From: Gautieria morchelliformis
Lineage: Eukaryota > Basidiomycota > Agaricomycetes > Gomphales > Gomphaceae
Reading direction: 5' to 3'
Assembly (NCBI GenBank): GCA_015179125.1
Contig: WHVA01000075.1
Location: forward strand, 62,001 to 126,000
DNA: 64,000 bases
In this document: positions 5,916-50,813 of the stretch, piece by piece
Position numbering within the stretch: position 1 is the first letter of the stretch
Layout: each line of letters opens with the position of its first letter
Notes under the pieces: generated by a model
What the model saw: the letters and a program-made list of their open reading frames with translations, nothing else
Told to the model about the DNA's origin: nothing
Database searches by the model: none
Made by a program: the position numbers and the translations under genes

Positions 5916-5949
5916 TCACCCCCCCTCTAGCGTGCTGCGTCCTCGAAGC

Positions 5950-9900: not shown

Positions 9901-10048
9901 GCCCACTGGGATTATGTAATAACTAACATACATGTAGATACACGGGTTATTTACAGTGGGTCTGTACGAAGTGAGGGGAGTGGGGGCTTTTCATTCTCTA
10001 CTTCAAGACAGGCAAACCGGTTATGTACAGGCAGCAGGGGCACACATC

Positions 10049-11224: not shown

Positions 11225-11855
11225 GTCGGAAGGAGAAATATGTGTAGAGGACAGGAATTATAGGCAGTAGGATGGACTTGTTGCTCAAAAGAATAGATAC
11301 CTAGAAAACAATTCACTACAGAGGATTTCTAGGTTAATAAATCGAAAGAATACTAGACTAATTTACTTGCCTCTCTCAGTGAATTTAGTGGTCACTGAGA
11401 GAGGGGGAAATATGTTCTACTGCGCATGTACTACTACCCGGCCCTTTAGCGCCCAAGAGCTCGCGCGTCGAAGTCATTTCAGACTCCGCTCGGTGCAGCC
11501 GCTTGTGAAAGTAGGAATAACAAGATGAAATGGAGAGATAAGGAGTGAGTGGAAAATTTCGAAAATAACCAGAGAAATGGATGCATGATACAAGAACAAT
11601 GTGAGAAGAAATTGAGAAGCCACACAACAAATTGGATATATTATGCTTGATTTTGGTGCAGGAGCATAAATGCACCCAACAATATAGGACGGGATTTGCG
11701 GGGTTGGGAGCTCGACGTAAGAAGAGGGGCTGTCGTACACTGTGTGTGCGGAAGAGGTTGCGATCTCCGAGTCGCTGTCTCCGATTCCGAACGCACCTAT
11801 GGCGAATGCAACGCGCAGTATGACTGCCGGTCCTCTAGGGGAGAGACTTTTCTGC
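11225..11855. other. Chromo-1 leader between 5' LTR and gag
   Basis: Non-coding leader of the minus-strand element, ending at the LTR A boundary at 11855. The segment next to the LTR (minus strand, starting GCAGAAAAGTCTCTC) is similar to the equivalent position in Chromo-2 and is the likely primer-binding neighbourhood. I cannot name the tRNA. Confidence 0.5.
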
Positions 11856-12000
11856 TGTAAGGGCAACCCTGGCTGGTCGTGGAGATCACACTACCACACA
11901 AATGACAAGGGGAAATCCAAAGAATGTATAAATGACCAGAGTATACAAGAGAGGGGATTCTCACCTAACAAGGGGAAATCCAAAGAGAAAAGTCTAAGGA

Positions 12001-12567
12001 GGATGTTTATAACTGTCATATATATGTATATATAGCTTAGCTCATCTATATTTCATAAAATATATCACAATTGAGGCAGTTGCCAGCATCTGTAAGACAT
12101 GCTTAATCCTAGCCCCAAAGTTCTTTCTCACAGTCTGCTGCTCCCCCAGGAAAAGGTGTATACCCCATTGTCTAAACATCAATAGTTACATATCTTTGTA
12201 CTAATACATGCATATTATTTTAATCATACCTTCTAATCAGATCTCTCAACCATATATAATAATATAGTACAGGTATTGTCCATACTTGCTTCTATATTCT
12301 GTGATTGTACATCTAACATGTTTCATGTATACTTTTAATATCTAGTCATCCACATCCTCTCTGAAATTGCTCTGTTATATCAATACACACTATGCTTTAG
12401 CACATACAACCATATTTTTAAAATATCAGAACATTCAAAAGAATTTAGGATATCCACAATATACAAGTTGCTCAAAATGATGGACTATGAACTCAGTTAT
12501 GGTTGATTTTTTAAAAGATATCTAATATATCCTAGAAGAATGTACATTGTTGTCAATGTGAACATCC
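12001..12567. mobile_element. AT-rich MITE-like DNA transposon inside LTR A
   Basis: The insert starts GGATGTT and ends AACATCC, with weaker similarity continuing inward. It is flanked by a near-perfect 8-bp duplication of LTR A sequence (tctaagga / cctaagga). An 8-bp duplication with short inverted ends fits a hAT-type non-autonomous element; a 9-bp Mutator-type reading is possible. It is about 570 bp, very AT-rich, with no coding capacity. Confidence 0.65.
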
Positions 12568-12745
12568 TCCTAAGGACCCCCAATGTCAGCGAGCCCATAT
12601 TATACTACGCTGCACAGCCAGGGACAACACTTGGCACCCGCCATCAACCCTGCATCTCCCTGACCACCCTGACCCTTGATTGACCCTTGATGTCACCTAT
12701 TACGCGATTCGCTTGATTTCCGACACTGTTCCAAGAGTGGAAGTC

Positions 12746-13217
12746 TATAAGGGCAACCTAGGCAGACGCTCTACACTCAAGCGGCGAACTGGCGAAGGGG
12801 GATCCAAAGTGAGATAGAGAACTATATACAGGACATAGACATACCTGGCGAAGGGGGATCCAAAGAGAAAACTCTAAGGAACCCCTTCGCCACCTAACTA
12901 CGACTATAAGCAAACGCGGGCATGCTAGCCCGATCACCGAATGCCCGAGTTACATAAGCAATCATGCCAGCGATAACAGGGGTGGACAGATAAGGAAGGA
13001 ATGATGTCGGAAGGGGCCGGAACAGAAAGGGAAATAAATGGAACACAAGACAAAAGGATGCTAAAGGCTAGGAGAAGCTCAGGGGCCACCAACAACACGC
13101 TGCGATGATGCAGTGTGCGATAACGCACAGTGCGATCGTACACAGTGCGACGATGCACAGTGTGATCATGCACAGTGCAGTGTGATCATGCACAGTGCGA
13201 TTGGTGTTCCCCTGACA
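12746..13217 (-). repeat. LTR A', 3' LTR of Chromo-2
   Basis: 472 bp, plus-strand ends TATAAGGGC and CCCTGACA. It is related to LTR A at both ends but differs in the middle (gcggcgaactggcgaagg in place of the LTR A segment). It holds a short array of 'atgcacagtgcga'-type repeats at about 13090-13205. Confidence 0.85.
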
Positions 13218-13220
13218 TCA

Positions 13221-16200
13221 CCCCCCCTCTAGAATGCGGCGACCCGACGCATGAAGTCCCACTGGTGGAACAGGGATGCGATTCTGAAATGTGACAGCCT
13301 CCAAGGAGCGAATGCGACGAGGGGCACCTGGATGCGAACGGTAGAAGTCGGCAATCAGGTCAGGAGCTTGGACATCGCCCTCATTTTCCCAAGAATTCTC
13401 TTCACAGCCATACCCCTTCCACTTGATGAGGAACTGGAGGCGATTTGCTCGCATGCGACTGTCTAACACCTGTTCAACGTCAAAGTGCTCATCACCCTCT
13501 CTAAGGATGGGTGGAGGTGGTGGGGATGGTCGCCGACCCAAGATTGGATCGGATGGAGCAGGAGTGAGCTTAATGACGGGGAAAACAGGGTGGAGGCGAC
13601 TTAGAGACCTTGGGAGGCGGAGACGGTGGGCTTGTGACCCAACTTGGCGTTCAACCACATAGGGGCCAAGTCGCCGATGAGCTAGCTTTTTCGAAGGACG
13701 GGTGGTGTGTATATCGCCTGCATCGAGGTAAACCTTGTCACCCGGAGAAAACGTAGGTGCTGGTTCACGTCGGCGATTATAGTATATTGCCATGTCCTCC
13801 TTCGACTTTGCCAGTGCTGACTTTGCTTCTGACAGTGACTCCTCCATGCGTTCCTTGAATTCATTGACCGACTCAAGGTTCGATGGGGGTTGATGTGGTT
13901 CGAAGCCCATTCGTGGGTGCCGCCCAGTGTCCAGCATGAAGGGCGATTGACGAGCGGAAGCATGCACATGGTTGTTGTACTGGAACTCGGCCATGGGCAA
14001 GAGGTCATCCCAGTCGTCCTGTCGCTCATTGACAAAGAGTCGAAGGTACTGCTCTAGCTCTTGATTGAGTCGCTCCGTCTGTCCGTCAGTCTGTGGGTGG
14101 TATGCTGTGGAGGCTGCGATGCAAATTCCCAGCAGGCGATAAAGCTCATGAGTGAATTCACGCACGAACTGGACTCCGCGATCTGACACCACTGTTCGCG
14201 GGAGGCTGTGCAGCTTCCAGACATGGTGTAGGAAAAGTCGTGCTGCTCCGGCTGCCGTGATCGTGGTGTTAGTGGGGATGAAGTGTGCCCGCTTGGAGAC
14301 CGAGTCCACTACATTCATAACAGCATCGTAGCCATGTGCGTCAGGCAGTTCCACAATGAAGTCAACACTGATCGTGTCCCAGCAAGCTTCAGGGACAGGC
14401 AGTGGATGGAGTTCACCAAGGGGTGGCTGCCTTCGTGCCTTTGTTCGCAGGCATAAATCGCACGTCTTGGAGTACTCGCCAACATACCGCGACATGTGGG
14501 GCCACCAGTAATTTCGCGAGACAAGTTCAAGGGTCTTCCATCGCCCTGGATGACCAGCGACCCGAGAATCATTGTGCTGGGCGACAATTTGTCGCCTGAG
14601 GTCCTGGACGTCTGGAACGTAAACTTTACCTCGGAATGTGAGCAACCCATCCATCTCAGCCCACTCTGCAGACACCAGCGATTTCCCACCAGACTCTCGC
14701 AGCTTCTTTACCGCTCCTGCGACCTCATCCTCCAGTGACCCATCTCCAAATGCCTTCTTTACGTCGCGAATAATCCCACGTTCTTCCCCCACCAGGGTGA
14801 GCCCCTCCAGGGCGCGAACAATGAACAGCTCTGGGCGTAGGAGCATCAAATCACTGTTGTCACCCGATCCTGACCCATGGTCCGAGCGCCGCGACAGTGC
14901 GTCTGACTTGCCCATCGTGACACCAGGCCGATGGTGAATCTAAAAATCAAAACGCGACAAGTAGAGAGACCATCTAGCCTGCCTGCGATTAAGCTTCTTT
15001 GCAGTGCAAAATACTCCAGGTTCTTGTGGTCAGTCCAGATCTCAATGCGATGCTTAGTACCTTCAAGGAAATGTCGCCATTCCTCTAGGGCACGAATAAT
15101 CGCCAGCATCTCCTTGTCATGAATCTCATAATTTCGCTCCACAGGGGTGAGACTCTTGGAGTAAAATGCAATCGGATGCCATTTGTCGTCATCTGGAGAT
15201 CGTTGGGATAGGACTGCACCAGTGGCGACATCTGAACTGTCAGCCTCCACCCGGTATGGTTGATTGTCATCTGCAAAGTGCAGGATCGGCGTTGATGTGA
15301 ATCGCTGCTTCAGCCCATCAAATGCCTGCTGTTCGCGATCACCCCATGACCATTGTACGTCCTTCTTGGTGAGCTCGAACAGGGGACGTGCATGATGGGA
15401 GAAGCCCTCAACCAACCGGCAATAAAAGTTGGCAAAGCCCAGGAATGCCTGCACCTCCTTGCGATTTGCCGGGGCTGGCCAGTCCATGACACCTGCAACC
15501 TTGATGGGGTCCATCTCCACCTTGCCATGTGACACAATGAGCCCAAGGTACTCAATCTTTGTTCGCTCAAATTCGCATTTCTCAGGGCGAAGATATAGCT
15601 TGTGCTGCCGTAGGCGCTCAAGGACTATTCGCAGAAGTCGGCGATGCTCCTCAAGGGTGTCGGTGAAGATCAGGATATCATATAGGTACACACACACATG
15701 CCCTTCCATGATGAGGTCTTGGAAGATGTCGTTCATCATGGTCTGGAAGGTCGCAGGGCTGTTTGTCAGTCCAAAGAACATGACGAGGGGTTCAAAGAGG
15801 CCGCAATTAGTGTGGAACGCAGCCTTCCACTCATCGCCATCCTTGATCCGCACATTATTAAAGCCCCATCGCACGTCTAGCTTGGTGAAGTATTTCGCTC
15901 CACGAAGTTGTGCAATGAGCTCAGAAATAATGGGAAGGGGGTAGCAATTTTTCACTGTCATGGCATTGAGCACGCGATAATCCTGGTCCAGTCGCAGCGA
16001 CCCGTCCTTCTTCTTGATGAAGAACACTGGGCTGGCCATAGGCGATTTCTAGGGGCGAATGCGACTGGTGTGCAGGTTCTCCTGCAGGAATTCATCCAGC
16101 TGTGACTGTTCACTGGGGGCAAGTGGGTAAACCTTGCATGCAGATGGCTTGGCTCCTGGCTCAAGCTCAATCGCATGGTCCCATGTCCTGCGCTCGGGTA

Positions 16201-16970
16201 GCGAATCAAAGGACTCTTTAGCGAAAACATCCTCGAAGTCACGGAGGTACGGAGGGATGAGTTCCTTTTCCGCTGGGGGTACACTGCGAAGGGCCTTTTC
16301 CGCGAGCTGCTGCGAAGTGGTTGTGGTGGCTGCAATAATGGGTACAGGTACATTGGGCGTGGACACAGTCGCAAACAGGCGGTCGCCTGGCTCCAGAAGG
16401 GGCTCAACCTCACCAGCCTCATCTCCTTCTGCGTCTCCCTCTTCCTCTTCCACCATCTGAGGCAGGGGGCCCATGCGGCATGCACGTATTCTCGCCTCCT
16501 CTCTCCGCTCTTCCCGCAGTGTTGCTCTGCAGGTGTGGCACTGCGCAGGGCATCTATTCAGTGTCACCTCCTGCGTTCGCCAGTTAACCTCTGGGTTGTG
16601 CTCCCGGAGCCATGGATAGCCCAGGATCATCTTGTGCTTCCAAAGGTTCGTAACGGCAAAGACAGCGCGTTCAGAGTGGTCGCGGAATCGCAGGATGACA
16701 TCAACAACATTGCGAATCGCTCCGCCCTCGTTGGGAGTGCCATCAACATTGTAGACAGGGGCAGGGCGTGTGAGTGATCGCATGGTTAACTTCTCAGCGG
16801 CAACAAATTCGCTGTCGATGAACAACCCGGTCGCACCACTGTCAAGGAGTGCAGTCACTCCTTTGACCTCAGCAGTGTCTGTTGTCTGGATCTCTACCTT
16901 GAGGTTCAGCGAATTTGGAGAGGGAACGGATGCAACCACAAAGTGCTTGGGAAGAGCTCACTCCCAACGC
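13221..16970 (-). mobile_element. Chromo-2 pol region: protease, RT, RNase H, integrase, chromodomain
   Basis: Minus strand. A protease DSGATG motif lies near 16840. RT with [11 protein letters not shown] and a YLYDILIF box lies at 15500-16030. RNase H with YEIHDKEMLAI lies near 15120. Integrase with an HHCC zinc region lies near 14500, and its core extends to about 13700. A chromodomain with FLIKWKGYG lies near 13430. It is a sister of Chromo-1 pol with the same domain order. Confidence 0.87.
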
Positions 16971-17130
16971 TTCAGTCGTGGTGAAGGACCTTTCTGAATG
17001 TTGGCAGTTGATGTGTCTTTATCGCTTGCTGTGTGCGACCCAGTTTCTGACACAGGGAATGTATCTTCAGTATCTGGGGCTATTGACAGAGCAGCAAATC
17101 GATTGGACAGGGGCAGCGAGGGCACATCTC

Positions 17131-18242
17131 TCACTCGCTGCGCGACACAAAATCCTCCGCCTCATCCTTCTCAACCTCTTCCTCAGCGACATCTCGCACA
17201 TCCGCAGCGACCATCCAGTGCTCCAAAAGCTCCTCACGCTCATCAGCTGTCATGTAGCGGATGTCGTAGGCCTGCGGGCATTCTCGCGCAAAGTGTCCGA
17301 CCTTTCCGCAGCGCCGACAGGTGAGTGGCTGTGGGAACCGCTTCTTCGCAGCATCCACATCCATCGGAGCAGGCCCAGAGGCATTTGGAAGGGGAGTGGG
17401 CACTGGCGTTATTGCTGGCCTCAAAGAGAGCTGACTGGTGAACCTGGTGTGTGATTCACCTGCCTTGCAAAAACTGGCGGTGGGGGAGGGCCACTGTTCA
17501 TCACCCTAGGCCCCTGGAATGCTTCGTTGGCTGCACACGTGAGTGCGACTGTTCTCGCAGCTCCATACCATGCAGAAGGGTCATCATCCTTTGGCCTGCC
17601 ATCCAACATCAATGTGATGCGACTCTGGATTGCAGGCTCGAGACCTCAACGGAACTTCATCACAATCAATCGCCCATCTGTGTATTCGGCCTTCTCAACC
17701 AGCTCCTCGAACCCATCGATGTATTCGTCAACTGAACGCTTGCCCTGGTGGTACTGGCGCAATTCCAGTTGATTCATAGCATTGGTGGCCTCATGTAGGG
17801 GGTAGAACTGCTGGCGAAAAGCCTCAACGAAATCCTTCCAGGTCGCGTAGAGCGGCGCCCCATGCTTCGCTTCATGAGTGAATGCGCGTGTGGCGAAAGT
17901 TGCAGCCCTTCCTGTTTTCATGAAGGACATCGCCCAAAGGATCTGCGACTGCTCGTCTGGAAAGTCGCTTGCACACACACCCAGGTAGAGGCTGCACGAC
18001 TGGAAGAAGTTGCGACCGTTTGCACGATCCCCATCGTACTCGGAAGGCTTTGCTGGCTCTGCTGTTCGTTTTGAGGAGGTGCGAACGCGACTAGGGAGTC
18101 CAGCCATCAGCCCAGTGGTTGTAGCCTGCAGGGTGTTCAACCTCGTCTCCAGATCTTGTTTTTCCTGCCTCTCCCTCATCAACTCTTGCTCTATCGCCGC
18201 CAAGCGGTCCAAAACTTCAGCAGCAGATGGCAGGTTGTCCAT
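17131..18242 (-). mobile_element. Chromo-2 gag region
   Basis: Minus strand from an ATG at 18242. An N-terminal coiled-coil-like segment (LAAIEQELMRERQEKQDL) is followed by a gag core (YDGDRANGRNFFQSC) and a CCHC knuckle (CRRCGKVGHFARECP) near 17290. Same family as Chromo-1 gag. Confidence 0.85.
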
Positions 18243-18636
18243 GGTAAGTGTTAGAGGGTGTCAGGGTATGAGAAAGGATTGCTAAAATCGCTGCTTTCGA
18301 AGGGTGGTCGATTCAAAGTCGGGCGATTTTGCAACCGGTGCTCTAGAGAGAGTTTTCTACTATAAGGGCAACCTAGGCAGACCCTCTACACTCAAGCGGC
18401 GAACTGGCAAAGGGGGTTCCAAAGTGAGATAGAGAACTATATACAGGACATAGACATACCTGGCGAAGGGGGATCCAAAGAGAAAACTCTAAGGAACCCC
18501 TTCGCCACCTAACTACGACTATAAGCAAATGCGGGCATGCTAGCCCGATCACCGAATGCCTGAGTTACATAAGCAATCATGCCAGCGATAACAGGGCTGG
18601 ACAGATAAGGAAGGAATGATGTCGGAAGGGGCCGGA

Positions 18637-19319
18637 TGTTACGTATCGAGATTTCTACTAAGTTGGAACTGGAAAGGACGGCGGCTTCAACTTATAGGTT
18701 GCGCCCCCGATGAACTATCGTCCTAAGTATTTCGGAACTGAGTCGGAAGTCGGAAAGTACTGGACCAAAGGTTTGGTCGGAACTGGTGTCGGAACTGAGG
18801 CGGAAGGCGGAAGACTGAGAGAGACTGAGATCTTGCTAGACTCGCTGTGCTAAGAACAGGAGATGGAGCGAAAGAAATCAAGTATCGAAGGTGATTATCT
18901 GATTGCAGAATAACAGACATACATGAGGGGGTTTTATACAAAGCGCAGAGCAACAAGTAATGGTGTTGTACTAAACAAATTCTGGAGGAAGCGGAAGTCG
19001 AGTACAATGTGTGGGAACTAACTAATTGGGAACAATGGGACTACAAGGGGGGTTCAGGGTAAGGTAGAACAATGGCAAAGAACAAGGGGTCGGGAAAAGA
19101 TATCTGACAACGAACTACAAGGGTGACCGGGTATGTGGTTTTGATGAACGATGAAGCGGGTCCGGTGGGTCCGAGTAATAGAGTCGAAAGAACAAGGGAA
19201 ATGTACAATGGGCGAAATGTTGGAAATGTCGGAGGGGCGGAACGTGTGACGGAACTATCGGAGGGGCGGAAAGAGTGGCGGAACTGAGGGCCGGAAGTCG
19301 GAAATGAACGGTCGTAACA
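18637..19319. repeat. solo LTR C (Chromo-3 family)
   Basis: 683 bp with TGTTACG...CGTAACA ends and a perfect 5-bp target duplication ccgga (18632-18636, 19320-19324). It matches the two LTRs of Chromo-3 closely and is dense in CGGAA. It inserted inside a CCGGAA word of the host LTR. Confidence 0.9.
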
Positions 19320-19454
19320 CCGGAACAGAAAGGGAAATAAATGGAACACAAGACAAAAGGATGCTAAAGGCTAGGAGAAGCTCAGGGGCCACCAACAACA
19401 CGCTGCGATGATGCAGTGTGCGATAACGCACAGTGCAACGACGCACAGTGCGAT

Positions 19455-19575
19455 CGTACACATGGCGACGATGCACAGTGCGACGATGCACAGTGCGACG
19501 ATGCACAGTGCGACGATGCACAGTGCGACGATGCACAGTGCGACGATGCACAGTGCGATCATGCACAGTGCGATT
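19455..19575. repeat. 15-bp minisatellite inside LTR A'
   Basis: About seven tandem units of gcgacgatgcacagt, the last a variant with gatcatg. The matching place in the other LTR of the same element (13140-13205) has only a few, more irregular units, so copy number changed after insertion or between strands during replication. Confidence 0.85.
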
Positions 19576-19771
19576 GGTGTTCCCCTGACAAAGTCGGAAA
19601 TTGGATTGGAACTGGTGAGGCGAACAGAACTGGTGGAAGTTCTCCCAGAAGCGGAATCATTTCCAAAAGCAGAGGCGGAGATGGAATCGGAACCGGAACC
19701 GGAGTCGGAAATGGAGTCGGAACTGGGTGTGGTGTCGGAACTGGAAATGGAAAACAGGGTGTCCCCTGACA

Positions 19772-24253: not shown

Positions 24254-26507
24254 ATGACTGACAGAGGACATGGCCGCGGCACCCAGCCTGGCCAAGGGCA
24301 AGCTTCGGACGGTCGCAACAATCCCCTCCCGCCCTATCTTCGTACGAGAGGCCCCCCGCTGACTATCTAAACCAGTTCCGTGCTAGCCTAGGGCAGAATC
24401 TATCGGCCTCTAGCGACAATCCCGGCGCAGCCCACCCTAGTCTACCACGCCTGCCCTTCCCTGGCCATGGGCAACGTCCGTCAGCCTCCGGCAACAATCC
24501 CGGCCCAGTTCACCATAGTGTGCCGTATGCCCCGCGCCTGCGCCCTCCTGGGCCACCCTCCGGCGACATACAAGGAAGCCAGGGCTAACCTCATGCTCAA
24601 GGCACCCGTCGCAACCGCCCCCCTGAGCACCTTGTGGAACCCCTCGATAGGCTAAGCCCGTCCGTGATTCCCCACGCCGAAAACACCCTCCATGCTGGGC
24701 AACCTCCGTCGGTCTCCCGCAGCAATCCGGGCCCAGCTCACCATAGTGTGCCATATGCCCCGCGCCTACACCCTCCTGGGCCACCCTCCGGCGACATACA
24801 GGGAAGCCAGGGTCAATCTCATGCTCAAGGCACCCGTCGCAACCGCCCCCCTGAGCACCTTGTGCAACCCCTCGATAGGCTAAGCCCGTCCGAGATTCCC
24901 CACGCTGACAACCGCCTCCATGCTGGGCAACCTCCATCGGTCTCCCGCAACAATCCGGGCCCAGCTCACCATAGTGTGCCATATGCCCCGCGCCTGCGTG
25001 TTCCTGGGCCACCCTCCGGCGACATACAAGGAAGCCATGGTCAACGTCAAGGCCCCCATCCTGTCCCACCCCCCGACGAGTCCCTGGTGCAATCTTTCGG
25101 TAACCTAAGTTTAGGCCAATCAGCAAGTCCTAGTAACACCTTTCAGCCCGTCCCATCTCAACCCCACAATGCTGGTGCCATCATCCATGGAAGGCTGCAA
25201 AAGTTCTTTTCTGGCCCAGATCAAGCCACAAAATTTCTTGGGAATTTTGAAGGGCCTGGCGGTACAAGGCGGCAGGATATCTTTCTTGACATGTTTGCTC
25301 CCACTGGGGCAGGCAGCAACAGCAGTCATGGCAAAGACTTGCTCGACCTCATTCGACGTAATCCGGCGGACATCGGAATGTTCTTGAACAAGGTTTCCTC
25401 TGTCATTGGCTCCTTGAAATCTGCCGATAAACTCCTGAGAATGGATTTGCCAGCACCCATAACTAATGCTACCACAAATACAACCTCAGTGAGCACGACG
25501 GCAAATCAGTTATTCAGTGGTGACCCAATTGCATTCCGGTATTTAACTACTGCGGCAAGCGAGGTTCGGGCAGCAAGGGGTGCATTCAACATTGCAATAG
25601 CCAAAGTCCAGAGGTTCTTCTATGATGAACCAATCAAGAAATTTGCTCAAGTTGAAGGAGATGTCGTGTAGGTATTCAAATTCTTTGTCAGTACATTTAC
25701 CAAGTGACCATCTATGTTTTCAGGGACATATGCCTCGTAAACATACTTCTTCCAGTCGTCCAGGTGATGAATGAAGTGCTTACAGTCTGGTATGATGAAA
25801 AAGACTATCCTAAGATGGACCATCGCCGTCGGATTGTTTCAATCAGGGCTCAATACAATCCCACTAACCTGGGCAAAAGCAAGTACCCACTCAATGCTAG
25901 ATCATGCATTGATCATGTCTTGATCCTTGTGAAGCAAGACTTACATGACACCAGTGATCAACATGTCCTGGTCATACATGAAGCCAAGGTTAGCAATATA
26001 TACACTTTACAATTGTATTCTTGCCAACAATGTCTACAGATCGTGAAGAGCCTGGATGCAGATGAATGGGATGAACAGATAGCAATTTGCAGCAAAGGAC
26101 CAGTGAAGCTTATTGAGGATCCTGAATTGGATGACATTACAGAAATGTCAAAAATGATACCTCAAGTTCGCAAGTAAGTTTCAAATAATTAAATTGCAGC
26201 TTAGCTTTCTCACCCTGAGTCTAATAGATATGTATTTGGCAGCTGTTGCCCTTATGCTGTATTATCAGATTCATGCAATCACTGTGCTATGATATGGGGT
26301 AAGCCATCTGGCTGGCACCATAAGTCACACTCCTCCTTTGACATAGTACCAGAGCATTATCCTGGGAGTCAGCATATACCTGGAAATCCTCATCATTGCC
26401 ATGTTATCAGTGGTTCGAATACTGTTCATGGTTCTTTATGGGCTGCGCGTTACACCCTTGCATTCTTGTGTTATCTTGCTCTCAGGGACCACGGGCTCTG
26501 TGCTTAA
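24254..26507 (+). pseudogene. PD-(D/E)XK nuclease-like gene with Pro-rich repeats
   Basis: ATG 24254 begins a Gly/Pro-rich N-terminus. The repeat region follows (24380-25110), then a conserved helical part ending at 25667. Further exons keep frame: 25724-25988, 26040-26173 and 26228-26507 (a 48-nt in-frame GT-AG intron 26299-26346 is optional). Introns end in TTTTCAG, CTACAG and TAATAG. The pattern CIDHVLIL ... HVLVIHEAK resembles the D-(x)n-ExK core of the restriction-endonuclease fold; VLSDSCNHCAMIWG follows. This is a motif-level call. Two defects lie in the N-terminal region: a one-base frame change near 24350 and a TAA near 24580 where sister repeats read TCA. Function is unknown; similar folds occur in fungal CRN-like and transposon-linked proteins. 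Confidence 0.5.
24380..25110 (+). repeat. tandem repeat of about 228 bp encoding a Pro-rich segment
   Basis: Three units share blocks reading NNPGPAHHSVPYAPRL and PPGPPSGDIQGS, in frame with the downstream exon in units 2 and 3. Units are close in sequence, so the repeat is recent or homogenised. It falls in the coding region of the PD-(D/E)XK-like gene. Confidence 0.75.
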
Positions 26508-29632: not shown

Positions 29633-30317
29633 TGTTACGTATCGAGATTTCCACTAAGTCGGAACTGGAAAGGACGGCGGCTTCAACTTATAGGTTGCGC
29701 CCCCGATGACCTATCGTCCTAAGTATTTCGGAACTGAGTCGGAAGCCGGAAAGTACTGGACCAAGGGGTTGGTCGGAACTTGTGTCGGAACTGAACCGGA
29801 AGGCGGAAGACTGAGAGAGACTGAGATCTTGCTAGACTCGCTGTGCTAAGAACAGGAGATGGAGCGGAAGAAATCAAGTATCAAAGGTGATTATCTGATT
29901 GCAGAATAACAGACATACATGAGGGGGTTTTTTATACAAAGCGCAGAGCAACAAGTAATGGTGTTGTACTAAGCAAATTCCGGAGGAAGCGGAAGTCGAG
30001 TACAATGTGTGGGAACTAACTAATTGGGAACAATGGGACTACAAGGGGGGTTCAGGGTAAGGTAGAACAATGGCAAAGAACAAAGGGTCGGGAAACCATA
30101 TCTGACAACGAACTACAAGGGTGACCGGACTTAGGGTTTTGATGAACGGTGAGGTGGGTCCGGTGGGTGCGAGTAATAGAGTCGAAAGAACAAAGGAAAT
30201 ATACAATGGGCGCAATGTCGGAAATGTCGGAGGGGCGGAATGTTTTGCGGAAGTATCGGAGGGGCGGAATGTATGGCGGAACTGAGGGTCGGAAATCGGA
30301 AATGAACGGTCGTAACA
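29633..30317 (-). repeat. LTR C, 3' LTR of Chromo-3
   Basis: 685 bp. By hand count it holds 18 CGGAA/TTCCG words, against about 1.3 expected at random, nearly all as CGGAA on the plus strand. Confidence 0.88.
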
Positions 30318-30439
30318 GTATCTCCCTTCTAAGGTCGAGCCCCGCGAGACCACAAGTCGGAATCACGTGACCTGTGAACAAACGCGTCGGAGTTCGAAAG
30401 ATAGGCGGGAAACAAGACGCGTCTTCTGTTTATTCCATC

Positions 30440-31615
30440 ATGAGTACTCCAGTCGACTTCTCCAAAATGACCAGTGCTGAGATGAAGGAACACTTTGCTG
30501 ACATGCTCGCGCAAAAGGAGTTGGCCGAAAAACGCGAGGCCGAGGAAGCGGCACGGAAGGAGAAGGAGCGTCTGGAGGAGGAGCGCATAGAGAAAGAGCG
30601 CAAGGAACAGGAGCGTCGGGAACAGGAGCGGAAGGAGAAGGAGGAGCGTGACCGTAAGCGTCGCGAGGAGGAATCGCGCGTCCGTGAAGAACAGCGGAAA
30701 CGGGATGCGGCCAAAAAGGCTGCGGAAGAAAAGGTCGTGGCGGAAAAGGCAGGGAAGTTCCGGGTGAGTCGGAAATGTCGTGGGGGGTTCCGGAGCTCAC
30801 AGAACTCCCAGAGAGTCGCAGATTCCGAGGGAGAGTCGGAAGCGGAAAGGAGTGCGGAAAGCACACCGACTCCAGAGGGCAAGGGGAAGCAGAAAGGAAG
30901 TGCTCCCATGCCGAACGTCGTTGAGGAGCGGAAACGGAGGGCGGACGAGTTCCAGCAAGCTCGGAAGGAGAAGCTGGCTCGGATACTGGAGTTGCGAGAG
31001 CTGGGGCCGGAGAATCCTGCGACCCGGAAAAGGAAGACCAGGGACGGTGAGGAGGAGAAGGCCCCTTGCGATACGTGCGAAGTCAAGGGCCTGGAGTGCG
31101 TATGGTCGGAAAATCCGCGGGAGACGGCCTGCGAACGGTGCCGGGAAAAGAAGTGCCGTTGCGTGGTGGATGGGTGTGCCGCGAGGGTGGAGCGGAAACG
31201 GCGCAGGGTTGAGACCGAGGGGCCTGAAACCCCCAAGTCAAAACCGGGACCAAGCGGAAAGAAGGCGGAAGGGTTTCCGGTGACCGGGACGTCTGAGGCA
31301 GCTGTGCTGAACCGCTTCAGCATGGCGTCTCCACTGCTGGACATCGCTGAGTCGCTGAGGGGGATCCGGAAAAACCAACGTGGGATCTGGAACTTGCTTG
31401 AGGGTATGGCGGTGGTTCAGGAACAGCAGTTGCTGTCGTTCCAGAACCAGATGACCGTCATGTCGACGGTCTTGGAGCAATTCAAGCGGGAGTACCGGTG
31501 GCAGAACGACATGGTGCGGGAAAGGATGGAACTGCGGGTGCAGGAGGAAATCGGGGCGGAGGCGGGTCCGAGCGGGGGGCGGAAACGAGGGAACGGGTGG
31601 ACACGGAGTTGGTGA
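30440..31615 (+). mobile_element. Chromo-3 antisense ORF: coiled-coil Zn2Cys6-type protein
   Basis: 391 codons from ATG 30440, opposite in strand to gag-pol and placed between pol and the 3' LTR. The first 110 residues form a long charged Glu/Lys/Arg helix (coiled-coil or single alpha-helix). A basic linker leads to a cysteine cluster at about residues 213-245 with spacing CX2CX6CX10CX2CX6C, which is the Gal4-class Zn2Cys6 pattern, followed by the basic run ERKRRRVE. A second helical region lies near the C-terminus (SLRGIRKNQRGIWNLLEG). Gal4-class proteins bind CGG triplets (established). The element is saturated with CGGAA, so self-recognition is a plausible inference. Nuclear location is likely. 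Part of a fossil element. Confidence 0.7.
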
Positions 31616-31825
31616 TCGTCGGGGCAGGAGGGTCGGAAAAGGAGCCGGAAGCGGAAAAAGAGGTCGAGGCGGAGACCATGAGGGAGGAGTAGGCTGTCGG
31701 ATTGACTTGTAGTGTTTTTCTTGAAGTGTCGGAATTTAGTATATCGGAATAATAATCGGATTTTCTTTAAATGACTTGAGAATCTGTAAGAAACCAATGG
31801 GAATCGGAAATGAGGTCGGAAATGA

Positions 31826-34800
31826 CTAGGGCGCGGAAATGGGGCCAGGCTTATCAGGATAAGACTTGTGGAAATCAGAGACGAGGTCAGAGGCGTGGTC
31901 TAGTTCCGTGGCGGAAATCCACGAGGTCTCTTCGTCGGTGTTTTCATAGCCTGCCCACTTGACTAGGTACTGGAGTTGGCAGCGGTATCGTCTGTCGAGC
32001 TTGGAGTTGAGAATTTCCGAGATTTCATATTCCGGTTCTCCGTCGATAACGACTGGCGGAGGTGGAGGTTGTTCTCGATTCGGAATTGTATTCGGAACTG
32101 CGGGTTCAAGCATGGAGACATGGAATACCGGATGTACTGCGCGCATATTGTCAGGAAGTCTGAGGGTGAAAGAACGACTGCCGGCCTTAGCGATGATCTC
32201 GTAAGGACCGAGGTATTTCTCAGAGAGTTTCTCGAGGGGCGAGTGGTGCGGAAGTTTTCCGCTTTGACAAAGGCTTTGTCGCCTATCTCGAATGCCGGTT
32301 GCGGAAGGCGTTTCCGATCGGCAGAAGTTTGGTATCTCTTCTGGGCAGCTGTAATGTTCTCTCGGAGGTGCTGGTGAAGGTCGTCGAGTTCCACAACGAA
32401 ATCTCGGGCTCTTGCAGAGGCGAGGTCGCATTCGGGTGGATGGCGAGATTCGGGTGATAGCCCTTGTTGGCGTAAAAGGGGAAATTCCGGTGGTAGCGGA
32501 AGGCGCATTGTTGTAAGCAAATTCCGCGAGTGGAAGAAGGTCGGACCAATTGCTATGTTGGTAGTTGCAATAGACGCGGAGATACTGTTCAAGGGTCTGA
32601 TTAGTACGTTCCTTTGTCCGTCTCCTTCGGGGTGATAACCGGAAGTGAAGTGGAGCTTCATGTCGAGGCCTTCCGAGGTGCGGAAAAAGGAGACACGAAT
32701 TCGGATCCACGGTCGGAAGTGACATGGGAAGGTATTCCGTGCTTGGAAAAGACGTGGAGCACAAAGAGCTGTGCGAGCTGGGCGGAAGTTATGGTGTCAT
32801 AGGTCGGAATAAAGATGGACTGCTTTGTAAGGCGGTCAACGATCACTAGAATGGTATCATAGCCGGATGACTTAGGAAGTTTCTCAATGAAATCCATGGA
32901 TATCGAATTCCACGGTTGTTCCGGGATCGGAAGTTGCTTCAGGAGGCCGTAGGGTTTGTGACGTTGAGGCTTGGCTCGCATACAGGTGGTGCATGACTTG
33001 CAGTAGTCTTGGACCATCGTGCGGAGAAGGGCCAAGTATAGGTACGTCGGATTATGTCGAGGGTTTTGTTCTGGCCTTGGTGTCCTGAGAGCGGATGATC
33101 GTGGCTTTGCTGGAGCACACGAAGTCGTAGATCGTTGGTGTCCGAACTAAATCCGGGACTTGTACCGGAGAAATCCGTCGGAATCGAGGGACCATCCAGG
33201 ACTGGTGGGGTCATCGAGGTGGGATGCGGAGGTGGGGTCGGAACGGAGTGCGGAACGGATGTCGGAATGGAGAGACTCGGTGTCCATAATAATTGAGGCG
33301 CGGAGTAGCGGAAACTGCAATGCTGTGGCACGCAGGGACGATGCCAGTTGCTCAGTAGAGAATACTGGGCGGAAATTGTGCGGATTAACGCTGGCATAGT
33401 CGCTACTTCCCTCTTTTGGGTAGACGTCCCAACGTCTAGTGAGCGCGTCGGGTTTTGCTCCGAGCTTTCCGGGGCGGAAACGGATCACCATGTTGAACTG
33501 TGAGAGTATTCAGACCAGCGGACTTGACGGCGAGTCAAAATCTTAGTAGTTGCAAATACTCAAGGTTCTTATGATCCGTTACAACGTCGATCGGATAAGT
33601 TGGACCTTCGAGGTAGTGTCTCCAGATTTTGAAGGCTTCGAAAATCGCAAGTAGTTCCTTATCGTGGACTCGTAGTTGAGTTCCGGGGCGGAAAAGGTGC
33701 GGGAATGAAAGGCGATCGGATGAATTTCTCCGTCGTCGGGTGAAATGATGGAAAGAATGGCGGCTAGCGCGTAGTCAGAAGCGTCGGTTTCGAGTACAAG
33801 TTGGGCATCAGGAATCCAGAAACCGAGTATGGGAGCCGTGGTGAAGGCCGATTTGAGAGCTTCAAATGCGGAACGGCATTCCGGAGTGAAATTCCATGGG
33901 GCACCCTTCCTGGTGAGACGCGTAAGCGGAACAGTAATGTCGGAAAAATTATAAATGAAACGCCGGTAAAAGTTGGCGAAGCCAAGGAAAGACTGCACAT
34001 CCTTAACACGTCGGGGTTCCGGCCATTCTTGAATTGCCTTGACCTTGTCCTCTGCCATGGTAAGACCTGTTGGAGAGAGGATGTAGCCGAGGTATTCGAC
34101 CGTGTCGCGATGCCATTCGCATTTCTCTGCTTTTGCGTAGAGATGTGTTTGCGTAGACGGCGGAGTACTTCGCGGACATGTTCCCGATGTTTTTCCGGTG
34201 TGTCGAATAGATGAGGATGTCGTCAATGTAGACTAGAACGCATACGTCGAGGAGGTCGGAAAATACGTCGTTCATGAATCGCTGAAAAGCGGCGGGAGCG
34301 TTGGTTAGACCAAAAGGCATGACAGTCCACTCAAAGCACCGTAGCGGGTGCGGAAGGTGGTTTTCCACTCGTCACCTTCCCGGATGCGGACAAGGTGATA
34401 AGCGTGCCGGAGGTCAATTTTGGTGTAGATCTTCGCCCTGCGGGGAGTGTCGAGTAAGTCGGAAATGCGCGGAAGCGGATATTTGTCCTTTTTAGTGAGG
34501 GCATTGAGTCCGCGGAAATCGACGCAGAGGCGGAGAGATCCATCCTTCTTCTTGACGAAGAGGACCGGAGCACCGTGCGGAGACAGCGAAGGGCGGATAA
34601 AGCCCATGTTGAGATGTTCATCGACGAACTCTCGGAGAGTTAGGAGTTCACTTTGCGAAAGAGAGTAGATCGGTCCAAGGGGCGGAGATGCTCCTTCTTC
34701 CAAATCTATCTTCAAGTCGTAAGGTCGATGTTCAGCAGGTTTGTCGGCTTTGGCCTTATTGAACACGTCCGGGAAGTCACGATATTCTTCCGGAACTGAG

Positions 34801-35450
34801 CTCATGTCGACCGGAGCGGAAGTCGAGGCGGAACGAGCCTTGACTGAAGCCGAATCGGAGAGGTGAAGCTGGAAAACGGTCGTATCATCTTGCCGTTGCA
34901 ATACGCGGAAAGCGGTGGCGGAAACGAGCGCAATTCGAGGGGCTTCGAGGGGCGGAGGTGCTAAAGCGGGACCGGAGTGCGGAACTGAATCCACGAGCGG
35001 AGTTGCAGAAGAGGCCTGAGCCATCTTTGCAGAAGACGTCGGAATAGACGGAAGTTGATCCGGGGTACGGAACTGTATTTGACCCAATGCCCAGTTAATC
35101 GACGGATTATATCGGGTGAGCCAATTGTGTCCTAGTACAACGGAACAGCTAGCATCTAGCGGAGTAACGTAAAAGTAACTTCATGGTTGTCCCCAGTAGC
35201 GAAACGGATAGACAGATCCACAACTTGGGAAATTCCCGTGTTGGAAGACCCGTCGAAAAGGCGGAGCGGAATAGTCGGAATGTTGCGGGTCGGAAGTTTA
35301 TGTTTCAAAACAAAGTCGGAATCGAGGAAACAATGAGTCGAACCGGAGTCGACCAATGCTGTAAACGGGGGTGCGGAAATGGTGTCGGAAGTGAGCGGAA
35401 CAGAGAGAGAGTCGGAGGACGAAAGAGCGGATGCGTTGAGTTTAACCTCG
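31826..35450 (-). mobile_element. Chromo-3 pol region: protease, RT, RNase H, integrase, chromodomain
   Basis: Minus strand. A protease DSGSTH motif lies near 35350. RT with [16 protein letters not shown] (near 34550) and a YIDDILIY box (near 34230) follows. RNase H covers about 33650-33850. Integrase zinc region lies near 33100, with its core at about 32600-32900. A chromodomain with YLVKWAGYE lies near 31950. A chromovirus more distant from Chromo-1 and Chromo-2 than those are from each other. Confidence 0.85.
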
Positions 35451-35499
35451 TTTGTCGCACGAATGGGGTCAACACAGCCCTCAGCTCGTGCGGAGGCCG

Positions 35500-36935
35500 G
35501 AGGACTGCTGACTATTTTTTTGAATCCGCAGCGGGAACCGCTTCGGATTTCTCTTCCGTCTTTGCTGCGCGGCCCTTGGCCTTAGCAGCGGAGGCGGAAG
35601 CGCGAGTGCAGTCGCGAGCGACGTGACCTCCTTTGCCGCAGAAGAGGCAAAGGTTGTTGTCCATGCGACGCTGGCGTTCTACAGGGGTTAGTTTTCCGTC
35701 CTTCCCAAGTTTGTCGGAAAGATCCGGGGTCTCTTCCGGGCGTTGGTGTTAGAACCAGAGGCCTGGTTGTTCGAGGGGTGTTGTTGTTGTTCCGGTTGCC
35801 GGAGTTGGATCCGGAACTGTTGTTGTTGTTGTTTCCGGAGTTGGTGTTTCCGGAATTGGTCTTCTTCTTGTCTTTATCAGACTTCTTGTCGGAAGACTTG
35901 TCGTTCTTGCTCTGGGCGGAAGTTTCACGAGCAATCTCGGAGTGTCTTTCCCAGTAGCGCGAATCGATGGATTGGGCGAGGTTGCGGAGGTCGGTAAGGG
36001 TGGCGGGTTTTCCGACGCGGGCAATTTCATCCTTGATGCGGGATGGCAAGCCCATGTAAAACTGGTGTCGGAGTGCGGCTTCTCCCCATTGGACTCGAGG
36101 AGCGAGCTGCTGAAACGTGACGATATATTTAGCTATCTTATGAGTGTCTTTCATGCGAAGCTTATCGAGTTCGTTTTCCGCATCGGCTTCCATATCAAAT
36201 GGTCCGAAGTTGCTGCGGAGTTCGGAAATGAAATTGGGGTAATCGTCGGCCCAGTCGACGAGAGCGAACGGATCCATGAGGGCGGGTTCGAAATAGTCGA
36301 GCGCCGTGCCTCGGAGATGGGAAAGGGCATAATTGACCTTTCGTTCGTCGTCGGGAAAGGCGTCGGGACGATCACGGAAATTGAGTTGAAGCTGAACCAG
36401 AAATGGCTGGAGCTTCTTGGGGTCGGAACCGTCGAACTGATCTGGTTCGCGGACCTTTGTCTTGGGGTGTGGTGGTGCTTGGGCCGGGCGCTGGAGTTGT
36501 CCGGCTAGCATGGCGATGGCTTGTGCAAGATCCGGAACTGGCACGGGCGGAACTGGGTTGGCGGGAATCTGAGGTGGAATTGGAGGTGGAGGACCGCCTG
36601 GGGGACCGCCGGTGGGCCGCCATGAGGGCCGCCTGGAGGGCCGCCTGGAGGTGGTCCTGGTGGAGGTGGTGGTGGTGGGCTGGGCGTCGGAATGATGCTG
36701 CTGTTTGTTCGCCGCTGCTACTCGTTGAATTCCCGTCGTAGTCGGGATTTTCGTCGGGATTAGCGTCGGGAACTTCTTCGAATCGTTGCGGAAAAGCATC
36801 GGAAAGCTCATCGTCGGCACGAGAGCTGCTGGAGGGTTCCGCGTGCCTTGGTGCTGCGGATCTAAGACTGCCAAAATAAGAGAGAGCTTCAACAGCTCCT
36901 GCTCGAGCTGAAGTAGCTGTGGTACGAGGAGGCAT
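35500..36935 (-). mobile_element. Chromo-3 gag region
   Basis: Minus strand from an ATG at 36935. A Ser/Pro-rich N-terminus is followed by a retrotransposon gag core (VREPDQFDGSDPKKLQPFL; ALDYFEP) and a low-complexity Asn/Ser/Gly tract near 35800. A CCHC knuckle-like C-x2-C-x4-H-x4-C region lies near 35640. Confidence 0.8.
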
Positions 36936-36968
36936 AGTGATAGTTATCGGGTGGGAATCAGATAATAC

Positions 36969-37649
36969 TGTTACGTATCGAGATTTCCACTAAGTCGGAA
37001 CTGGAAAGGACAGCGGCTTCAACTTATAGGTTGCGCCCCCAATGAACTATCGTCCTAGGTATTTCGGAAATGAGTCGGAAGTTGGAAAGTACTGAGCCAA
37101 AGGTTTGGTCGGAACTTGAGGCGGAACTGAGGCGGAAAGCGGAAGACGGAGAGACTGAGATCTTGCTAGACTCGCTGTGCTAAGAACAGGAGATGGAGCG
37201 AAGGAAATCAAGTATCGAAGGTGATTATCTGATTTCAGAATAACAGACATACATGAGGGGGTTTTTATACAAAGTGCAGAGCAACAAGTAATGGTGTTGT
37301 ACTAAGCAAATTCCGGAGGAAGCGGAAGTCGAGTACAATGTGTGGGAACTAACTAATTGGGAACAATGGGACTACAAGGGGGGTTCAGGGTAAGGTAGAA
37401 CAATGGCAAAGAACAAGGGGTCGGGAAAACATATCTGACAACGAACTACAAGGGTGACCGGATATATGGTTTGATGGATGGCGAGGTGGGTCCGGTGGGT
37501 CCGAGTAATAGAGTCGAAAGAACAAGGGAAATGTACAAGGGGCGGAATGTCGGAAATGTCGGAGGGGCGGAACGTTGTGCGGAACTATTGGAGGGGCGGA
37601 AGGAGTGGCGGAACTGAGGGTCGGAAGTCGGAAATGAACGGTCGTAACA
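36969..37649 (-). repeat. LTR C, 5' LTR of Chromo-3
   Basis: 681 bp, partner of 29633-30317. It abuts LTR B sequence on its right side without a target duplication. Confidence 0.88.
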
Positions 37650-38661: not shown

Positions 38662-38841
38662 CCAGCCTTAAGTAGCTGTTTGCACCGTTCCAAAGCTGTT
38701 GGACTAGGTGGAACTCGGTTATATCAGGTAGCCTAGTCGCTAGTGATCGTAAGTGTCGTATGAATTCTCTTACAGTCTTCTTTCCCTGAGATGCCTCATA
38801 AAATTTAGAGTGCATTTGCTGTCTAAATCTTGCAGGGAAAC

Positions 38842-39331
38842 TGTAAGGGCAACCCTGGCTGGTTGTGGAGATCACACTACCACACAACTGACAAGGGGAA
38901 ATCCAAAGTATGTATAAATGAACAGAGTATACAAGAGAGGGGATTCTCACCTGACAAGGGGAAATCCAAAGAGAAAACTCTAAGGACCCCCAATGTCAGC
39001 GAGCCCATATTATACTACGCTGCGCAGCCAGGGACAACACTTGGCACCCGCCATCAACCCTGCATCCTCATGACCTCCCTGACCCTTGATCGACCTTTGA
39101 TGCCACCTATTACGCAAGTTGCTTGATTTCCGACACTGTTCCGAGAGTGGAAGTCGGAAATTGGAGTGGAACTGGCAAGGCGAACAGAACTGGTGGAAGT
39201 TCTCCCAGAAGCGGAATCATTTCCGAAAGCGAAGGCGGAGATGGAATCGGAACTGGAAGCGGAGTCAGAAATGGAGTCGGAACTGGGTGTGGTGTCGGAA
39301 CTGGAAATGGAAAACAGGGTGTCCCCTGACA
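38842..39331 (+). repeat. solo LTR A
   Basis: 490 bp, TGTAAGGGC...CCCTGACA, with a perfect 5-bp target duplication gaaac (38837-38841, 39332-39336). CGGAA/TTCCG words (8 by hand count) all fall in its second half. Confidence 0.92.
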
Positions 39332-40814: not shown

Positions 40815-41333
40815 CGGAGCCATCGTACGGGTCCGGCTCGGAGATTTTCACACTTGAGGTTTCCTTGATTCGAAGCTTCAACCTTTTCTTGTAAGCCTTT
40901 TTCTTTCGATTCGACCTATATTTTGCCATTGAGTCGCTTGTAGAGCTCTCTTTGGAATCCTCTGAGTCGATGTCGAGGTCCTTCCGATGATTGGCTTTCT
41001 TCAGTAGCGTCTGCACTAGGTAACCATCTTTGGGGATCTGCGTGGTCACTAGCGGGTAAGATGCAAGGGGCATAGTTGCCTTGATATTTCCCCCTGGCTT
41101 CATGTGCCGTAGCTGATATACTCCAGGCAGGATAGCCATCGTTTTTCTCTGACAATTGTCTCTGGCAGGTAATGGATCGCCCTTATCACGACGGTCGTTC
41201 AGTGCGTGATGTAAGTTTAACGCGATTTGGCTGTCCATTATGCTCACATTGACCGATGATCGTTCCTCGAAGGTTTCTTCGGGGGTAGAGTCCGCCCTCC
41301 ACTTTTCCATTTCCTTGGCCATGAGACGCTTCC

Positions 41334-41811
41334 TGTAAGGGCAACCCTGGCTGGTTGTGGAGATCACACTACCACACAACTGACAAGGGGAAATCCAAAG
41401 TATGTATAAATGAACAGAGTATACAAGAGAGGGGATTCTCACCTGACAAGGGGAAATCCAAAGAGAAAACTCTAAGGACCCCCAATGTCAGCGAGCCCGT
41501 ATTATACTACGCTGCGCAGCCAGGGACAACACTTGGCACCTGCCATCAACCCTGCATCTCCCTGACCACCCTGGCCCTTGATCGACCCTTGATGCCACCT
41601 ATTACGCGAGTCGCTTGATTTCCGACACTGTTCCGAGAGTGGAAGTTGGAAATTGGAGTGGAACTGGCAAGGCGAACAGAACTGGTGGAAGTTCTCCCAG
41701 AAGCGGAATCATTTCCGAAAGCGGAGGCAGAGATGGAATCGGAACTGGAAGCGGAGTCGGAACTGGGTGTGGTGTCGGAACTGGAAATGGAAAACAGGGT
41801 GTCCCCTGACA
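41334..41811 (+). repeat. solo LTR A
   Basis: 478 bp with a perfect 5-bp target duplication cttcc (41329-41333, 41812-41816). Very similar to 38842-39331, so both are recent. Confidence 0.92.
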
Positions 41812-49852: not shown

Positions 49853-50813
49853 ACTATTGACGTCCTTGACCGGGGGTTCATCCTGTATCGAAACTTTGAG
49901 AGGTCAAATGGCTTCAAGGCGCCAGTTACCGTCCTACAGTGGCCTCCAGCAATCCTCTTAACTCGTTTCTCTTGCTGTAGCTGCTTCCCATCAAACTACG
50001 TGCCGCCGATTATTTCCTGGTACTACACCCTAGACTAATCATGAGACAATCTTAGTCGGTGACTTCCGAAAGGATCCTTAGATATGAGCTGGAAGAGGAT
50101 GATATACTAGTAGCAGCTTGATGAGTCCGACGAAAATGCAAATAACACTCATAAATGCGTTGCGGCCCATTGAAGGCGCATGGGTCGAGACTCCATATAA
50201 CTAGTACTAGTGCCAATATTTTGCACGAGCAAAGCTATCGTACCACATGTAATGATCTTCATGTTCAATCGCGTCGTCTTCCCTCTCCTAGACAATGGCT
50301 TTGGACTTCTAAGAGCCAAGGGCGGCAGGAAATCTCATAACTACGGTCTACCTTGAAGGGCACAGCTTACTCAGGGAAAAAGTACGTGATGCTAACTGCC
50401 ACCAATACATTCTTCTAGCCGCTGCCAGTGAACTATATACTAATAAATCTTTTGACAGCGCTAGCGGATTGCCCTCTTGCGACGGAAATCGGAGCCTCTG
50501 GCAGTGCTTCTCATCTGAGCTGTCCACTCAGGTGTAACATGACATGTGGCACTCGCGAAGTTAGCACTGCGTTCGCTTGCATGAACCGAGTACTTTAGGT
50601 TTTTTCTGAACCTCTACGGTTCTTCAAGCTCTGTTCTTATTCCCCGCCATACACAGTGGAGTCCCTGCATCATTCGGGTCACCCAGGACATTGCTTCAAG
50701 CTTCATCTTCCTTTCCCACTTGCTGCCCTGGAGGCTTCTTCAGCTTGTTTCTGTCCCTTGACATCAGGCTACATATTTTTATCGACGTCCGCAACTCCAC
50801 GTTGAATTCAGAT
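49853..50813. other. upstream part of the duplicated 7TM unit
   Basis: From about 50052 this is nearly identical to 55901-56646 and includes the full upstream region of copy 3. Only a short part is shared with copy 5 (from about 60085). No gene recognised apart from the start of copy 3. Confidence 0.5.

Follow-up and report, generated by a model that had tools for sequence, protein, structure and literature searches.

A conserved antisense gene for a putative Zn2Cys6-like protein in a fungal chromovirus packed with the word CGGAA

Within the window, i.e. the whole stretch of 64,000 nucleotides of Gautieria morchelliformis DNA analysed here, the chromovirus Chromo-3 combines a conserved antisense gene (asORF) for a putative zinc-cluster protein with a short word, CGGAA, that is packed in the element far beyond chance. 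On balance, and from the evidence of one genome, we favour the proposal that asORF encodes a Gal4-class-like Zn2Cys6 protein, which would recognise the word packed in its own element and act in trans on the family.

The Chromo-3 element and its antisense gene

The features of the window considered below are as follows.
29633-37649, gag-pol on the minus strand: Chromo-3 element, with its two LTRs and pol domains
29633-30317, minus strand (gag-pol sense): 3' LTR of Chromo-3, with 17 CGGAA on the plus strand and 1 TTCCG
plus-strand coordinate 29936 and below, in the 3' LTR, minus strand: likely sense TATA box, TATAAAAAA
30219-30301, plus strand: 7 CGGAA sites clustered at the end of the LTR, some 140-220 bp upstream of asORF
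30440-31615, plus strand: asORF, 391 aa from ATG, between pol and the 3' LTR
30764-30811, plus strand: probable asORF intron, GTGAGT...CCCAG, 48 nt in the window copy
31067-31162, plus strand: zinc cluster CX2CX6CX10CX2CX6C, asORF residues 210-241
31826-36892, minus strand: chromovirus gag-pol of Chromo-3, frames broken in the window copy
36969-37649, minus strand: 5' LTR of Chromo-3, with 16 CGGAA and 1 TTCCG
18637-19319, no strand assigned: solo Chromo-3 LTR, 94% identical, with 14 CGGAA and 0 TTCCG
4060-12745, minus strand: el2, a second chromovirus with the CGGAA word, its extent inferred from LTR repeats

Chromo-3 is placed among the chromoviruses by its Ty3_capsid, RT_RNaseH_2, SH3_Tf2-1 and Chromo domains, all of which exceed the Pfam cut-offs, the Chromo and SH3_Tf2-1 domains being located in the minus-strand pol. 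Its LTRs, the ends of which read TGTTACG...CGTAACA, differ by 43 substitutions over 682 aligned bases, and no matching target-site duplication was seen at the edges of the copy at 29633-37649. The solo Chromo-3 LTR splits an apparent 5' LTR of the element el3 (18360-19590), the pieces of which match 12745-13217. Elsewhere in the window, the stretch 24468-25049 holds a direct repeat with 228-bp spacing, has three partial copies 88-91% identical and is open on both strands, and a unit of 2-2.5 kb occurs three times (50048-52562, 55900-58404 and 60167-62264; 90-93% identical), with copia-type gag frames nearby (54251-55573 and 62898-63581).

The 391-codon frame opposite to gag-pol, with its CX2CX6CX10CX2CX6C spacing, lies on the plus strand between pol and the 3' LTR, exactly where the original prediction had put it. 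It encodes a charged N-terminal coil, a Zn2Cys6-like cluster, a basic run and a C-terminal coiled coil, and the alignment of copies indicates that the C-terminus of the window copy is altered by a frame change. Judging from the following comparisons, asORF is a real gene, under purifying selection and with a probable intron. First, searching the source genome with the protein gave 108 matches at 106 scored places (of 1070 candidates), which are 62-100% identical when second fragments are set aside, and 71 of which, by hand count, have no inner stop; a more distant query gave 123 matches, partly at new places. Second, the dN/dS ratio among nine hand-chosen copies is about 0.2 (0.13-0.32 over 36 pairs), and in the zinc region it is at most 0.17 in 35 of these pairs. 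Third, an intron of the form GTGAGT...AG (48-57 nt) occurs at the same place in all 39 distinct loci examined. Its length is a multiple of three in 37 of them, the exceptions being L002 (52 nt) and L040 (55 nt), so that many asORF copies are readable whether spliced or unspliced; in L002, L041 and L045, the frames span 162, 108 and 120 codons unspliced, and 313, 390 and 401 codons spliced. An intron lying opposite to the genomic RNA would escape loss in retrotransposition.

Aligned to the window copy at the DNA level, the copies L041 and L044 are 93-95% identical in the LTR and 67-75% identical in most of asORF (79-85% at its ends). Either LTR and asORF have recombined in these apparent mosaics, or asORF evolves much faster. 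As natural swaps, they are of use for testing the word against its reader.

The zinc-cluster pattern occurs once in Chromo-3, on the plus strand. All six cysteines, in the arrangement CX2CX6C-spacer-CX2CX6C with spacers of 7, 10 or 15 residues, are present in the seven sequences compared, which represent four groups and leave out the diverged Chromo-3 copies L042 and L043 (two of the ten aligned), each of which lacks one cysteine. Against the Pfam family Zn_clus (PF00172, cut-off 21 bits), the window protein scores 16.1, i.e. below the cut-off; the score of L075 (21.0) reaches it, and those of L078, L044 and L013 are 16.4, 14.7 and 12.6, respectively, the L074 antisense protein having no Pfam match. 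All six weak matches of a PDB profile search are Zn2Cys6 proteins (Cep3/CBF3 subunit B twice, GAL4 twice, LAC9 and LEU3), at non-significant E values of 0.088-0.95. Structure predictions for the Chromo-3 second exon with ten sequences and for L074 without alignment gave models of which the confident parts are coiled coils only; in the AlphaFold model of the former, short helices (residues 83-88 and 104-108) follow the first cysteine of each half of the cluster, with a pLDDT of about 60. Similarly to the Gal4-class Zn2Cys6 proteins (PF00172), which bind CGG-type sites, asORF has the cysteine spacing, a basic loop and a coiled coil behind the cluster. The basic loop (CREKKCRC), which stands in the second half of the Chromo-3 cluster, is matched to the first half in the alignments with GAL4 and LAC9. 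Unlike ordinary Gal4-class genes, the Chromo-3 gene is antisense inside a retrotransposon, and its window copy remains under the Pfam cut-off. We accordingly treat the antisense protein as carrying a putative, diverged Zn2Cys6-like cluster.

The CGGAA word and the words of other families

On both strands of Chromo-3, CGGAA was counted 150 times against a first-order expectation of 28.6 (119 CGGAA and 31 TTCCG versus 19.3 and 9.3), which makes it the most over-represented 5-mer of the element and bears out the excess that had been predicted; likewise, the 18 words counted by hand in one LTR were recovered as 17 CGGAA and 1 TTCCG, against 1.7 and 0.3 expected in the 3' LTR. The z score of CGGAA is 22.5, as compared to at most 4.8 for the top 5-mer in 200 simulated sequences (8018 nt) of the same dinucleotide make-up, and the next permutation of the same letters, GGAAC, occurs 39 times on the plus strand, versus 119. 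The excess also withstands shuffling of codons. On the sense strand of the five open gag-pol frames, TTCCG occurs 47 times versus 15.7 (the top 5-mer), and CGGAA 22 times versus 8.6; in nine copies of asORF, the z score of CGGAA ranges from 1.8 to 5.9, L042 being the weakest (12 versus 8.1). The word was thus judged to be caused neither by base composition or dinucleotide bias nor by the encoded protein and its codon usage, since the nulls that preserve them are exceeded and the permutations lag behind. Most of the sites (115 of 150) lie outside the LTRs, and the word is also present in asORF, in its intron and in both LTRs. Its fuller form in Chromo-3 is GCGGAA/TCGGAA. A 29-bp tandem repeat (30215-30281) makes up part of the seven-site cluster upstream of asORF.

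The comparison of copies indicates that CGGAA sites persist with turnover. The copy L044, which is so diverged from the window copy (dS about 1.1) that synonymous sites are near saturation, retains 21 CGGAA; 8 of 17 aligned sites are common to both copies, versus 147 of 688 for CpG-free 5-mers and 26 of 79 for other 5-mers starting with CG. Within LTRs, conservation of the CpG in CGGAA exceeds that of other CpGs in 7 of 10 copies, is equal or hardly better in L042 and L039, and is worse in L043. Within the window, the excess is found in Chromo-3, the solo LTR and el2 with its LTR pieces, CGGAA being at expectation in el3, in a copia gag and from 42 to 64 kb. In the genome as a whole, CGGAA forms 8291 + 8114 triple clusters, versus 520 + 532 for the reversed pattern.

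A clear word was found in five of the six chromovirus families sampled from reverse-transcriptase (RT) matches, the best 150 of 4604 candidates being scored. In a codon-shuffle test that pools the strands of 5-mers and holds protein sequence and codon usage fixed, the leading words are CGGAA in Chromo-3 (48 versus 17.1), CGAGG in F64 (L064 and L074; 48 versus 21.1), CCGAG in F67 (L067 and L075; 31 versus 13.0), GCGAA in F66 (L066, L068 and L069; 77 versus 28.1) and again CGGAA in el2 (L051; 74 versus 20.6). The matrix of observed over expected words by family is mostly diagonal, the off-diagonal values including 3.3 for CCGAG in F64 (versus 3.7 in F67) and 3.1 for GCGAA in el3. The bias towards one strand is strong in Chromo-3 (119:31) and F64 (68:17), slight in F66 (65:52) and el2 (60:49), and mixed in F67 (28:27 for CCGAG, 17:3 for AGCCGA). 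Triple clusters of GCGAA number 1713 + 1301 genome-wide, versus 221 + 137 for the reversed pattern, and those of CGAGG show a modest excess (1127 + 998 versus 576 + 565); an array of 11-bp period (G000:C14:191477-192048) inflates the GCGAA count.

Chromo-3 and F64 are closely related, their pol sequences agreeing at 656 of 980 aligned residues (67%). At the 583 codons of identical peptides, TTCCG occurs 11 times in Chromo-3 versus 3 in F64, and CCTCG 2 versus 10 times, the expectation in the family that owns the word being 3.7 and 3.5, respectively; two positions are common for TTCCG and none for CCTCG. The opposite-strand words CGGAA and CGAGG are only at expectation in these codons.

An antisense gene lies downstream of pol in all four of Chromo-3, F64, F67 and F66, that of F66 being represented by a coil exon only. 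In 30 of 30 hand-picked contigs with matches to both (12 Chromo-3, 10 F64 and 8 F66), the RT and the antisense gene are on opposite strands, 2.4-3.2 kb apart. The F64 antisense ORF (295 aa; L074, 2245-3129) carries CARCEERDYTC-X15-CVWCRTRSLGC, and its search, with 133 candidates scored, gave more than 20 matches 97-100% identical and without stops. F67 has an antisense coil and CNNCYRRKVSC-X7-CQDCNARKVHC, the search with this cluster giving at least 150 matches, including a second group at roughly 35-50% identity, a member of which, L078, has CDTCRHRQTGC-X7-CQQCVDRKVRC. The antisense gene of L078 (C606:64150-65500) runs into a long microsatellite, which keeps the frame open, so that its reported length of 421 codons is misleading; the first 930 bp of this 1.35-kb stretch show no clear word (best z scores 3.8 for CACAT and 3.7 for CGGAA and CTCGG). 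The F66 coil exon gave at least 150 matches; among nine RT matches with the F66-type span (2-205), five of which were shown to be F66 by sequence, eight are accompanied by the coil exon, on the other strand at a distance of 2.6-3.2 kb, C315 having no such match. The F66 zinc cluster was not found in L076 and L077, both decayed copies.

The original prediction that the word would co-vary with the zinc cluster holds in part within the source genome. The clusters of three antisense families share the Zn2Cys6 spacing and are otherwise diverged in sequence, as are the words; on the other side, the F64 word CGAGG(T) and the F67 word CCGAG overlap despite differing zinc clusters.

The comparison elements are as follows. 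The el2 copy L051 is a compact, young element of 6.25 kb, with LTRs 99.8% identical; its pol frame enters one LTR and its gag frame the other, it offers no room for an antisense gene, and a six-frame scan did not find the zinc-cluster pattern. No trace of a former antisense gene was seen in el2: compared with the Chromo-3 protein, the antisense strand of four el2 3' ends gave nothing better than E 0.7. The pol of el2 is only 41% identical to that of Chromo-3, and its CGGAA word was hence not inherited through pol recombination. Since el2 has CGGAA without asORF, the density of the motif does not follow the presence of the gene, contrary to the link originally expected. By chance, a given word would be shared at a rate of about 1 in 122, the number of strand-pooled CpG 5-mers. 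In the window, both el2 LTRs appear to be split by inserts (4060-4221/5600-5915 and 11846-12000/12570-12745), and unsplit copies lie at 38841-39331 and 41333-41811. The word of el3 appears at best weak: GCGAT/GCGAC reaches z 8.1 against the Markov null, and GCGAT occurs 26 times versus 11.1 after codon shuffle (z 5.3, the next word having 4.7); no zinc-cluster pattern was found within 12745-19590, and no antisense gene was seen. By the same tests, the copia controls are without a comparable word, none of the three sets having a codon-shuffle leader above z 3.7. Their small first-order excesses are CCTTC in L071 (z up to 4.0) and ATATA in the copia set of the window (z 5.0), and host DNA at 56-64 kb has ATATA at z 5.5.

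Possible readers of the words

In the mechanism that we propose, the antisense protein would bind the CpG-containing word of its family (GCGGAA/TCGGAA for Chromo-3) and, once bound, would act in trans on copies of that family. The most likely effect would be to keep the chromatin of the element open and transcribed, by anti-silencing or LTR activation, as VANC does for VANDAL. Anti-silencing, transcription and marking may be alternative effects; words spread through coding sequence argue for an effect on the whole element, anti-silencing or marking, beside LTR activation. The seven sites just before the start of asORF would permit its self-control, and el2 would free-ride on the Chromo-3 factor. 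We infer the reading of the word by the antisense protein, the effect of its binding and the free-riding of el2 from the patterns described above. The self-recognition that had been predicted is supported in part, by the conserved antisense gene, by a word that beats the codon null and by the other words of related families with diverged zinc clusters, and weakened by el2, which has the word without the gene. More tentatively, with doubt slightly ahead of belief, we extend this proposal to a family-by-family code of fungal chromoviruses, in which an antisense, intron-bearing Zn2Cys6 gene and a CpG word spread over LTRs and synonymous coding positions would co-evolve, each family protecting or activating itself alone, and compact gene-less elements of the el2 type would copy the word of a neighbour.

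The chief rival, which we regard as unlikely, is that each word is bound by a protein of the host, probably one of its numerous Zn2Cys6 factors, which activates the element or protects it from silencing, the antisense protein doing something else. Fungi have large numbers of Zn2Cys6 factors, many of which read CGG, and a host protein would account for the strong word of el2 in the absence of the gene and for the weak one of el3; el2 may indeed either borrow the Chromo-3 factor or carry a word read by a host factor. However, related chromoviruses with pol 67% identical have differing words, so that several host readers would be needed; the four of the six sampled families other than el2 and el3 all have an antisense gene or coil exon and all have a word; and the copia families are without a comparable one.

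It is very improbable, in our estimation, that the protein serves copy control or self-targeting, i.e. that it represses the sense promoter or marks element DNA for integration into copies of the family. The clustering of sites before the start of asORF would allow such a feedback, and nested insertions occur in the window, such as the solo Chromo-3 LTR inside el3 repeats, but the el3 host of that LTR is not enriched in CGGAA. A mutational or compositional origin with no reader at all, through context-dependent CpG bias, reverse-transcriptase bias or codon usage, already fits poorly and is scarcely probable. Every word does contain a CpG, the diverged copy L039 shows CpG decay (upstream of its ORF, 11 TGGAA versus 7 CGGAA) and one strand of Chromo-3 is purine-rich; yet the nulls that keep dinucleotides, or protein and codons, are exceeded, other orders of the five letters are much rarer than the word, the words of related families differ at corresponding codons, and copia elements of the same nucleus are without the word. 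Least probable of all is a signal at the RNA level, the word acting in genomic or antisense RNA (packaging, export or protection), as suggested by the strong strand bias of Chromo-3 (119:31; 17:1 in the 3' LTR) and F64 (68:17), for the bias is slight in F66 and el2 and absent for CCGAG in F67, and the Chromo-3 word is also present in asORF, its intron and both LTRs.

Comparison with known systems

The proposed reading of the word by the antisense protein has its closest parallel in the VANC/VANDAL systems of Arabidopsis, in which anti-silencing proteins encoded by the elements correspond to dense words in one orientation that differ between families (PMC5735166; PMC10398659). Both cases have a family of element-encoded proteins, and short dense words that differ between related families. 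The sharing of CGGAA by el2 parallels that of the VANC6 word by AT9TSD1, an unrelated element that responds to VANC6 (PMC5735166). The dense family word of the VANDAL type is thus present, the orientation bias being strong only in Chromo-3 and F64; as for tandem repeats, the LTRs hold the word-bearing 29-bp array, yet 115 of the 150 sites lie outside the LTRs. VANDAL elements are described as Mutator-like DNA transposons with DUF1985/DUF287 proteins and with words mainly in non-coding tandem repeats; unlike them, the elements of the Chromo-3 kind are LTR retrotransposons with an antisense Zn2Cys6-like gene and with words also at synonymous coding sites. Pfam scans of six antisense sequences gave weak Zn_clus matches or nothing, and neither DUF1985 nor DUF287. 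We propose that the Chromo-3 system would work like VANC/VANDAL without being a member of it, given the other protein, element class and word placement.

The conserved antisense ORF of Chromo-3 between pol and the 3' LTR also places it with the plant aORF-3R genes, such as Grande gene23, RIRE2, Retand and PvRetro13, which share this position and are kept across copies (PMC7264820). In contrast to the Chromo-3 gene, their products are given as having no similarity to known proteins, and the review's account of them makes no mention of word saturation (PMC7264820); the roles of antisense genes in plant LTR retrotransposons have, according to it, not yet been determined (PMC7264820). The Boty/BcGypsy1 element of Botrytis is likewise a fungal gypsy-type element with an extra antisense gene, brtn (PMC8365987; PMC7264820). 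Similarly, HBZ of HTLV-1 is a regulator of the DNA-binding type encoded antisense and made from the 3' LTR; it is a bZIP protein rather than a zinc-cluster one, and we claim no homology. In the open-licence PMC literature, at the level of titles and abstract openings, we found no fungal or retrotransposon system that pairs family words with an antisense zinc-cluster gene.

As several families pair a putative DNA-binding domain with a strong candidate word, the function of the antisense gene is directly testable, and such domain-word pairs would teach how Zn2Cys6 specificity changes. If the proposal is true, fungal retrotransposons have evolved anew, with another protein fold, the sequence-specific self-recognition that is known from plant DNA transposons; such recognition can influence which synonymous codons are used throughout an element, and unrelated elements can hijack it.
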